From assembly GCA_016933745.1 (NCBI GenBank), contig JAFGAK010000311.1:1-36453 (forward strand): a stretch of 36,453 nucleotides of DNA. The letters are read 5' to 3'. Origin of the DNA: Bacteroidales bacterium. GTDB taxonomy: Bacteria > Bacteroidota > Bacteroidia > Bacteroidales > UBA12170. Positions 20,579 to 34,439 of this stretch are shown piece by piece; within the stretch, counting starts at the first letter, position 1; every line of letters begins with the position of its first letter. The position numbers were made by a program, and so were the translations under genes. The notes under the pieces were generated by a model. The model was not told the origin of the DNA, ran no database searches, and saw nothing but the letters and a program-made list of their open reading frames with translations.

Positions 20579-20597
20579 TAGAATAGCGCTTCTACAT
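20579..20597. promoter_or_regulatory. Candidate BlaI-type dyad upstream of the DUF4834-YfhO operon
   Basis: TAGAA, six bases, TTCTA (20579-20594) is an outward-facing dyad using the same 5-base half-sites as the operator-like sequence before the BlaI gene at 31887. The right half-site continues TTCTACAT, which matches seven of eight bases of TTCTACAA found there. The 220-bp spacer has no gene; a near -7 box TATTTTCG follows at 20615-20622. The assignment is weak. Confidence 0.2.
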
Positions 20598-31831: not shown

Positions 31832-31862
31832 TTGAAATCTTTCTTTTTTTATTCTATATTTG
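31832..31862 (+). promoter_or_regulatory. Promoter of the blaI-like gene (TTG-N20-TATATTTG)
   Basis: TTG at 31832-31834 and TATATTTG at 31855-31862 are 20 bases apart, which matches the Bacteroidota promoter consensus. A second exact -7-like box (TACTTTTG, 31875-31882) lies 20 bp downstream, too close to the ATG at 31887 to be a productive promoter. Confidence 0.6.
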
Positions 31863-31887
31863 TAGAACTATTTATACTTTTGTAGAA
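31852..31887 (+). promoter_or_regulatory. Two operator-like dyads in the blaI-like promoter
   Basis: The first is TTCTA-N6-TAGAA (31852-31867), overlapping the -7 box. The second is TTATA-N6-TAGAA (31872-31887), one mismatch from the first, overlapping the start of the gene. They are offset by exactly 20 bp, about two helical turns, and both contain TTTGTAGAA, which includes the TGTA half-site of BlaI/MecI-type operators. Autorepression by the gene product is the natural reading. Confidence 0.55.
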
Positions 31888-32279
31888 TGAAAAGACTTTC
31901 ATACGCTGAAGAGCAGTTAATGAGCTATGTTTGGAAACTAGACAAGAGCTTTCTAAATGAACTTATTCTATGCTATCCAGATCCTAAACCGGCGAAAACA
32001 ACAACTGCCACTTTACTAAAAAGGCTTCAAGAGAAAAGTTATGTTGGATTTGAAACTTTTGGAAATTCCCGGCAATATTACGCTTTGATTGAAAAATCCA
32101 TTTACTTTTCTAATCTATTCAAAGAATTAATATCAACTCACTTTGAAAATTCGAATCAGGAATTTATCTCATTTCTGACTTCGGTTCTAAAGTTGGATCG
32201 AAATGATTTAGATGAGCTTAAAAAGAAAATAGATAAAGAAGTCAGTGCAAAAATGAACAAAGACGCCGTGTTTTTCTAA
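31887..32279 (+). CDS. BlaI/MecI/CopY-family winged-helix repressor, orphan
   Basis: 130 residues, the normal length. The N-terminal winged-helix (about residues 1-75) reads LSYAEEQLMSYVWKLDKSFL, with PDPKPAKTTTATLLKRLQEK (recognition helix) and SYVGFETFGNSRQYYALIEK (wing). The C-terminal helical part (residues 80-125) dimerises. This is the BlaI family of metal- or antibiotic-responsive repressors. In Bacteroidota these genes usually sit beside a BlaR1-type M56 membrane peptidase that inactivates the repressor. Here none is present: upstream is an unrelated secreted protein and downstream a convergent S9 peptidase, so the sensor must act from elsewhere. Its promoter carries two dyads, so it probably represses itself. 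Confidence 0.85.
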   Translation: MKRLSYAEEQLMSYVWKLDKSFLNELILCYPDPKPAKTTTATLLKRLQEKSYVGFETFGNSRQYYALIEKSIYFSNLFKELISTHFENSNQEFISFLTSVLKLDRNDLDELKKKIDKEVSAKMNKDAVFF

Positions 32280-32282
32280 ATA

Positions 32283-32313
32283 AAAAACCACCTAAACAGG
32301 TTGCTTAGGTGGT
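32283..32313 (-). terminator. Terminator between the blaI-like gene and the S9 peptidase
   Basis: Perfect 9-bp stem ACCACCTAA (32287-32295) and TTAGGTGGT (32305-32313) with a 9-base loop. Read on the minus strand it is followed by six T, so it mainly ends the S9 peptidase transcript, 33 bp after its stop. On the plus strand the tail (CATTT) is weak. Confidence 0.8.
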
Positions 32314-32345: not shown

Positions 32346-34439
32346 TTATTTAAGCCACTTATCTAGCCACTCGAAAAACGAACGCTGCCAAAGCACTCCA
32401 TTTTGCGGATGCAACACCCAATGGTTTTCGTTAGGGAAATACAAATATTTAGCTGGAATATCTCTTAAAACGGCTGCATTAAATGCGCTCATTCCTTGAG
32501 AAGCAACAATCCGATAATCTAATTCGCTATGAATGACCATGATTGGAGTATCCCAATTTTGCACAAATTTATGTGGCGAATTAGCATAAGTTCTTTGAGC
32601 AATCTTATTGGATTTATCCCAGAACGGACCACCTAAATCCCAATCAGCAAACCACATTTCTTCTGTTTCCAAATACTGTTGCTCTAAATTAAACATGCCA
32701 TCGTGTGCAATAAAAGCTTTGAAACGCTTCTCATGATTTCCTGCCAACCAATAAACAGAAAATCCACCATAACTAGCTCCAACAGCACCCAAACGGTTGG
32801 CATCTACCCATTTTTCTTGTTTCACGTTATCAATTGCACTTAGGTAATCTTTCATATTTTGTCCACCGTAATCACCACTAATCTGCTCTAGCCATTCCTG
32901 ACCAAAACCAGGCAAACCTCTACGATTTGGGGCAACAATCACATAATCATTTGCTGCCATCATTTGGAAATTCCATCGATAGGACCAAAACTGACTAACT
33001 GTTCCTTGAGGTCCTCCTTGACAATACAATAATCCTGGATAGGTTTTGTTTTCATCAAAATGCGGTGGAAGAATTACCCAAACCAACATTTGTTTTTGAT
33101 CTGTTGTCATCACCCATCTCTTGGTAACTTCACCAAAAGTAAGTTGATCCAATAAATGTTTGTTTTCGAATGAAAGCTCAGTAGCTTCACCATTCGAAGG
33201 ATCAACAGAGTAAATTTCTTGTGGTTTGGACATGGAAACACGAGTTGCTATCAATTTATTTCCTGCTTCAACTACACTATGATAATCATGAACACCTTCG
33301 GTTAATTTCTGAATTGAACCACTTGCCACATCCAATTTATAAATCTCTTCTGTGGCATGCCAATCGCTAATAAAGTAAAGCGATTTACTATCAGCCGACC
33401 AACTCAAACCGTTTGCATTTTGATCAAAATCTTTGGTACAATACGTTTTGTCACCCGTGGCTAGATCTAAAACAAATAATCTTGATTTATCAGATTCATA
33501 ACCATCGCGTTCCATACTTTCCCAGGCTAAATAAGCTCCGTTAGGTGAAAATGTTGGATTGATATCGTATCCCATCATTCCCTCTGTTAGATTGGTTGTT
33601 TGTTTACTTTCCAAATTATAGGAATACAAATCAGAGTTAGTACTTTTTGAATACGCTTTTCCTTCGAGTTTTCGAGATGTATAGACGATGTTTTTACTAT
33701 CGGGAGTCCAAGAAATCTGTTCTGTTCCACCAAAAGGTTTTAAAGGAGCGTCCCAAGGTTCATCTTTCATAATATCGAAGGCTTCTCCTAAACTTCCTTT
33801 TTCGTAGCTTGCCACAAAAATATGCGAGAAAGAATCCACCCAACTATCCCAATGGCGATACATTAAATCGGTCATTTCTCGAGCCGTTGTTTTATGTAAA
33901 TCCGGATTTCTATCAACCACCGTTTTATAAATTTTCACTTCTTTGGTAAAAAGAACTTTACTCATATCTGGAGCATAGAGAAAGCCCGAAATTCCATCTT
34001 CCACATCTGAAACCTGACGAGGATTTGTGCCATCTGCATCCATTTCCCACAATTGCATCGATCCGGAAGCTGCACTCATGTATCCAATTCGCTGACCATC
34101 AGGGCGCCATACTGCTCCATATTCCCCACTTGCTGTGGTCGTAATTTGTTTTTTGTTTTCGCCGTTGACATCCATTAAAAATAGCTCACGATTACTCTTA
34201 TCTTCTTCTACAGAATAATAAGATACGCCGTAAAGTATTTTTTGCAAATCAGGCGATATTTGAACTTCGCTCAAACGGCCAAATGCCCAAAGAATTTCCG
34301 GAGTCATGATGTCTGATTCTAACTCAAGCATATGCTTTCCAATCACATTTTCAGGTACTTTTTCTACTGCTTTTTCTTGTTTACAAGATGTAAAAAAGAT
34401 TAGCAGTAATGCACTTACTAATAAACTTAGATTTTTCAT
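32346..34439 (-). CDS. S9 family serine peptidase lipoprotein (prolyl-oligopeptidase/acylaminoacyl type)
   Basis: 697 residues. The signal peptide ends in lipobox FFTSC (Cys19), so the enzyme is anchored in the envelope. Residues about 50-420 form a PD40/WD40-like beta-propeller (repeats such as ISPDLQKILYGVSYY, WRPDGQRIGYMSAASG, FSPNGAYLAWESME, WSADSKSLYFISDW). The alpha/beta-hydrolase domain (about 445-697) has S556 in GASYGGF as nucleophile, D641 in HSELDYRIV and H673 in NENHWVLHP as the other triad members, all in the right order. Such enzymes release short peptides or remove N-terminal groups. The POT transporter in the same window could import the products, a speculative link. The gene is monocistronic with its own terminator. 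Confidence 0.9.
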   Translation of the reverse strand: MKNLSLLVSALLLIFFTSCKQEKAVEKVPENVIGKHMLELESDIMTPEILWAFGRLSEVQISPDLQKILYGVSYYSVEEDKSNRELFLMDVNGENKKQITTTASGEYGAVWRPDGQRIGYMSAASGSMQLWEMDADGTNPRQVSDVEDGISGFLYAPDMSKVLFTKEVKIYKTVVDRNPDLHKTTAREMTDLMYRHWDSWVDSFSHIFVASYEKGSLGEAFDIMKDEPWDAPLKPFGGTEQISWTPDSKNIVYTSRKLEGKAYSKSTNSDLYSYNLESKQTTNLTEGMMGYDINPTFSPNGAYLAWESMERDGYESDKSRLFVLDLATGDKTYCTKDFDQNANGLSWSADSKSLYFISDWHATEEIYKLDVASGSIQKLTEGVHDYHSVVEAGNKLIATRVSMSKPQEIYSVDPSNGEATELSFENKHLLDQLTFGEVTKRWVMTTDQKQMLVWVILPPHFDENKTYPGLLYCQGGPQGTVSQFWSYRWNFQMMAANDYVIVAPNRRGLPGFGQEWLEQISGDYGGQNMKDYLSAIDNVKQEKWVDANRLGAVGASYGGFSVYWLAGNHEKRFKAFIAHDGMFNLEQQYLETEEMWFADWDLGGPFWDKSNKIAQRTYANSPHKFVQNWDTPIMVIHSELDYRIVASQGMSAFNAAVLRDIPAKYLYFPNENHWVLHPQNGVLWQRSFFEWLDKWLK

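Follow-up and report, generated by a model that had tools for sequence, protein, structure and literature searches.

The repressor gene described here most likely encodes a self-regulating protein that acts on its own promoter and whose sensor has been lost. We propose that this BlaI/MecI-type repressor would close its promoter through two operators placed 20 bp apart, that the M56 gene which once accompanied it was lost a single time, and that the promoter of the gene itself is the main readout; we put the probability of this explanation as a whole at roughly 0.8. Such a gene offers a natural case in which to ask what keeps a repressor under selection once its sensor is gone. We call it an orphan, together with its orthologues in three other genomes of the genus (65, 64 and 59% identity; 11 genomes searched). 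The window (the whole stretch of 36,453 nucleotides that was analysed) contains the features collected in Table 1.

Table 1. Position and support of the features discussed in the text
Feature	Position	Strand	Basis
Upstream neighbour, 304 aa	30872-31786	+	Adjoins blaI in all four orphan genomes
Upstream promoter element TTG, which we take to be a "-33" element	31832-31834	+	20 bp before the -7 box
Candidate operator 1, TTCTATATTTGTAGAA	31852-31867	.	Invariant block in orphans, sole exact genomic match, core conservation
-7 box TATATTTG (TAnnTTTG)	31855-31862	+	Inside operator 1
Predicted transcription start (+1), giving a leader of some 20 nt	31867	+	Placed from the -7 box at -12 to -5
Candidate operator 2, TTATACTTTTGTAGAA	31872-31887	.	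Conservation confined to the right half, TTTGTAGAA (31879-31887)
Orphan BlaI/MecI-type repressor, 130 aa	31887-32279	+	PF03965, MecI fold, dN/dS
Orphan-specific C-terminal tail NKDAVFF	32256-32276	+	NKDAVFY in the other three orphans
Hairpin ACCACCTAA...TTAGGTGGT	32287-32313	.	Read from the sequence
Convergent downstream neighbour, S9 peptidase	32346-34439	-	PF00326, 179.4 bits

The product of the gene is a BlaI/MecI-type repressor. It matches Penicillinase_R (PF03965) with 75.4 bits (cut-off 22.6), over profile positions 1-114 of 115, and the solved structures matched by its sequence are MecI (E 2e-8) and BlaI. An AlphaFold2 monomer model (pLDDT 91.7, pTM 0.71) has MecI as its best structural match (1okr_B, Z 14.2, rmsd 2.1, 117 residues aligned; Foldseek against 1okr_A, E 1.1e-7) and shows the winged-helix N-domain and helical C-domain of MecI. 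The model covers a single chain; as a repressor, the protein would act as a dimer. Upstream, the 304-aa neighbour has no Pfam match and contains a GLYVDDF motif; seven of the other ten genomes of the genus carry homologues of it, and no BlaI ORF adjoins those of G002, G003, G005 and G010 in the flanks compared. Downstream, the S9 peptidase occupies the place where an M56 gene would be expected, in an identical position in all four orphan genomes, and the hairpin at 32287-32313 is likely a terminator between the two convergent genes.

The promoter of the gene carries two similar sites. The string TTTGTAGAA starts at 31859 and again at 31879, an offset of exactly 20 bp, and the last A of the second dyad is the A of the repressor ATG. 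In the part of the Flavobacterium psychrophilum report available to us, the consensus TAnnTTTG is placed at -12 to -5 (PMC9723704); taking the -7 box of the window in this way puts the predicted transcription start near 31867; operator 1 would then extend from about -15 to +1, and operator 2 from about +6 to +21, where it runs into the start codon. The TTG element is displaced by one base relative to TTTG, the string most often found at the corresponding distance from the dyad in the 81 related promoters described below (83, 79, 73 and 54% per column). The right halves of both sites are of the TGTA type, as in TACA/TGTA palindromic operators, and the left half of operator 1 has TATA in place of TACA, as in the other orphans; the form TTCTACA-NN-TGTAGAA is common among the promoters of relatives. 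Based on this arrangement, one dimer would sit on operator 1, coinciding with the -7 box, and a second on operator 2, between transcription start and start codon, and with both filled the promoter would be closed to RNA polymerase. The preliminary description, made from the window alone, had located the two dyads, their offset, the overlap with the -7 box and the contact with the ATG, and had proposed autorepression by a BlaI-type repressor without an M56 gene beside it; the sequence confirms the layout, the family assignment and the missing neighbour stand, and autorepression is supported by the position of the sites and their conservation.

Taken alone, the window is weak evidence, as its twin sites are only mildly improbable: chance predicts 0.08 exact dyads, and at least one turns up in 8 of 100 shuffles, while TTTGTAGAA is found 3 times against 0.88 expected. 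A comparison with relatives was therefore needed. Scanning one genome per species by protein rather than by DNA gave 79 loci, two orphans among them, and these with the window and G007 make up 81 promoters. In 75 of these 81, which are not independent rows since many come from close relatives (e.g. Sphingobacterium) and several genera appear many times, a second TAGW follows exactly 20 bp after the dyad. At other offsets there are none from +10 to +19, two at +21, one at +24, five at +27 and six at +28. The regular expression missed the +20 feature in six promoters (L050, L055, L059, L084, L085 and L089), and in L050 TGTAGA is present at +20 while the left-half CTA is absent. In a separate count, the best TGTAGA match of at least 5/6 lay at +20 in 52 of the 81 promoters, as compared to 0.42 on average, and never more than 2, in 200 shuffles. 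The pattern CTAYRnnYGTAGW occurs in 73 of the 81, and the core columns of operator 1 (1-4 and 7-13) are 93-100% conserved. Related promoters differ in how far before the ATG site 2 ends (0-5 nt, once 11), whereas the 20 bp are fixed, which ties the spacing to operator 1 and not to the start codon.

The orphans themselves tell the same story at closer range. When their four promoters are aligned on dyad 1, 19 columns are invariant at 31850-31868 and 12 more at 31879-31890, as against only 7 of 58 upstream of these blocks. Both TGTAGAA sites are invariant in the four species and the spacer has diverged; in site 2 the right half is conserved and the left half varies, and this site may be a weak site or a half site. 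The preliminary description had further suggested that two dimers bind cooperatively; they may do so, but the varying left half of site 2 does not favour it, nor does the related CopY system (see below). Conservation lifts both promoter sites far beyond chance expectation, and these promoters give good support to a reading of autorepression by way of two operators.

Two further observations concern the wider group. A third CTACA/TGTAG dyad, apparently a third operator, stands upstream of the twin pair in the Flavobacteriaceae loci L031, L032, L039, L052, L058, L061, L066 and L072. Among the 116 BlaI ORFs compared, all 23 TAGTT-class proteins and the single TAGTA-class protein have Tyr after a conserved Ala (AYNT/AYTT) in the recognition region. 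Tyr is replaced by other residues in the 85 proteins of the TGTAGA class, making this a possible specificity position.

Outside this promoter, we found little that resembles a target. The exact dyad occurs four times in the 11 genus genomes, each time at this gene and once per orphan genome, and the only TGTAGAA/TTCTACA sites within 6 kb of blaI common to all four clusters are the two of the promoter. With one mismatch allowed, the four orphan genomes hold 14 other sites, not promoter-like by position (13 inside ORFs of at least 100 aa, 1 in a convergent intergenic stretch). The orphan-less G002 and G003 give 26 and 24 against 14 each in the reversed control, counts in which forward and reverse matches of the nearly palindromic pattern often register one site twice. 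As the promoter of the gene is the sole well-matched operator in the orphan genomes, a homeostatic, self-limiting loop would probably be the main readout of the gene. Of 16 further genomes whose blaI genes are paired with M56, eight contain the exact dyad, one site each, seven of them at blaI by coordinates and one (G212) not.

A rival reading would have the repressor act on further genomic targets through degenerate sites, with autoregulation a mere side function. Weaker secondary sites are frequent among repressors, and a search for half-sites with flanks returned 21 in G008 against 10 in the reversed control. The same search gave 19 against 18 in G000, 12 against 21 in G004 and 16 against 26 in G007. 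Tandem half-sites were found in the four orphan promoters and once each in G002 and G003, where TTTGTAGA recurs 20 bp apart (G002:C64:28577-28604 and G003:C58:25481-25508) in genomes without the orphan. Against these counts stand the placement of the 14 one-mismatch sites and the lack of any other half-site shared around the four genes, and we regard further targets as the main function as rather unlikely. One such target had been named in the preliminary description, the DUF4834-YfhO operon, on account of TTCTACA at 20590. The string is indeed there, but it is not notable (9 copies in the window against 5.09 expected), and we rejected the operon as a target: the first 1.6 kb of eight other YfhO loci lack the half-site, those of the orphan-bearing G004 (compared without an identified DUF4834 ORF), G007 and G008 having neither TTCTACA nor TGTAGAA, and outside the window the half-site was found, at a different place, in the orphan-less G006.

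As to the sensor, a profile search found no M56 match on the contig of the window, and none adjoins the gene in the four orphan species, where the S9 peptidase and the 304-aa protein flank it. This sets them apart from 103 of 116 BlaI ORFs, which have an HExxH (M56-like) ORF directly downstream; in the window's own genome the M56 assignment of both pairs was confirmed by Pfam, and the remaining pairs are assigned by motif. Thirteen ORFs have no such neighbour: the four orphans, three that lie at contig ends (L034, L076 and L098), two broken ones (L067, where a looser scan found HExxH, and L095, where the same scan did not) and four for which some 1.5 kb downstream was covered (L104, L112, L113 and L123). 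In a tree of 114 proteins (midpoint root, few columns), the orphans form one clade (support 100/98) on a long branch (0.46), whose sister is the M56-paired L022 (100/92), inside the 85-row clade with TGTAGA operators. With the orphans a single clade nested among M56-paired proteins, one loss of the sensor is the simplest reading, and we consider that M56 was probably lost once. The ancestor would then have belonged to the Bacteroidota BlaI group, with the same twin-operator promoter driving blaI and a BlaR1-like M56 protease that would cut the repressor; after the loss, the repressor, its operators and its self-control would have been retained under selection. Two side observations come from the same searches. 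The M56 proteins of the window's own genome (L017:1838-3367 and L014:1881-3389) are fused to TonB_C, one of them also carrying CarboxypepD_reg-like domains, and L029, from a record titled Williamsia sp. (Actinomycetota), falls in the Bacteroidota BlaI clade, its assembly being probably mislabelled or contaminated.

The usual relief of BlaI is cleavage by BlaR1, according to the portion of PMC7593790 available to us. A paralogous M56 sensor could in principle relieve the orphan in trans, or a paralogous BlaI could share its operators. M56-BlaI pairs are present in G000, G004 and G007 (two M56 proteins over the cut-off in the first and one in each of the others, each adjoining another BlaI), and a paralogue promoter on G000:C46, TACTATATTTGTAGTA, is one base per half away from operator 1. 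However, the other paralogue class has a different operator (AACTA...TAGTT), and G008, 96% complete, has the orphan as its one BlaI match and no M56 over the cut-off, its sub-threshold match being an M48 CAAX protease by Pfam (as is that of G007; that of G004 looks alike). No unpaired M56 over the cut-off was found in the four orphan genomes, drafts of 76, 82, 95 and 96% completeness in which an M56 gene or an operator may have been missed. We hold control in trans by paralogues to be unlikely, as is release by M56 cleavage through a dedicated partner, and the earlier view that an inducing partner must lie elsewhere in the genome sits poorly with G008, and with the other orphan genomes, where each M56 over the cut-off adjoins another BlaI; the second option of the preliminary description, a regulator that answers to some other signal, may still hold.

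The gene bears marks of selection. Among the four orphans dN is 0.14-0.34, with dS of 1.1-2.8 or undefined. All four end in a tail, NKDAVF[FY], whose NKDAVF is found in 0 of the 112 other BlaI ORFs (116 compared; L067 and L095 broken); its codons differ at silent positions among the orphans, and in the model the last helix runs on to residue 128. We tentatively advance a one-gene loop, in which the repressor would have outlived its sensor and be controlled through the tail with its free C-terminal carboxylate, its twin-operator promoter being its sole strong target; in such a loop a housekeeping protease might, for instance, recognise the tail, or the tail may offer a docking or ligand site. 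We regard this specific version as doubtful. That loss of the sensor left the gene to decay is very unlikely: the long branch and the lack of a partner or second target in our searches would suit decay, but the gene is intact in four species, with dN below dS (at least 1.1 where defined), and the promoter blocks and tail are invariant with unchanged neighbours. Hardly credible, too, is the reading of the repeats as tandem -7 boxes or translation signals rather than operators. Dyad 1 does hold TAnnTTTG and the second repeat of the window the similar TACTTTTG, but the second TAnn is gone in the other three orphans, which keep TTTGTAGAA, the left half TTCTA is conserved outside the -7 box, site 2 stands at a constant distance from site 1 but not from the ATG, and in many relatives it reads CATAGA without TTTG.

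Beyond the orphans, the comparison shows that Bacteroidota BlaI promoters follow a sharply defined sequence rule, namely an operator on the -7 box and a second site exactly 20 bp further on, so that predictions of the targets of these regulators can be put to the test. A literature search, with most subscription journals outside its range, found no description of Bacteroidota BlaI operators or of this twin-site rule.

Among known systems, close relatives are the BlaI/MecI-BlaR1/MecR1 systems of Staphylococcus aureus, with which the orphan shares the repressor fold, the Pfam family, the TGTA half-site and the presence of more than one operator. It differs from them in having no adjoining M56 gene and no visible beta-lactamase or PBP target, in the TATA for TACA in the left half of operator 1 and in its additional C-terminal tail. 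The copper repressors CopY/CopR of Firmicutes belong to the same superfamily and also use two operators. For CopY, the portion of PMC7253601 available to us gives an operator core KACANNYGTM, operators mostly 24-39 bases apart (mode 26), a second operator that brought no significantly higher affinity, and C-terminal metal-binding CxC motifs; in contrast, the spacing in the window is 20 bp, and inspection of the 130-aa sequence finds a single Cys (C29) and no CxC. Also close are the Bacteroidota BlaI-M56 pairs (77 non-orphan loci), which share with the orphans the recognition region, the operator and its doubling on the -7 box at an offset of exactly 20 bp. An HExxH (M56-like) ORF adjoins blaI in 73 of these 77, unlike the orphans, which have none and carry NKDAVF[FY] in addition. 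The twin-operator layout is ordinary for the Bacteroidota BlaI group; what is unusual here is a repressor with no sensor, a clade-specific tail and an apparently single target, its own promoter.
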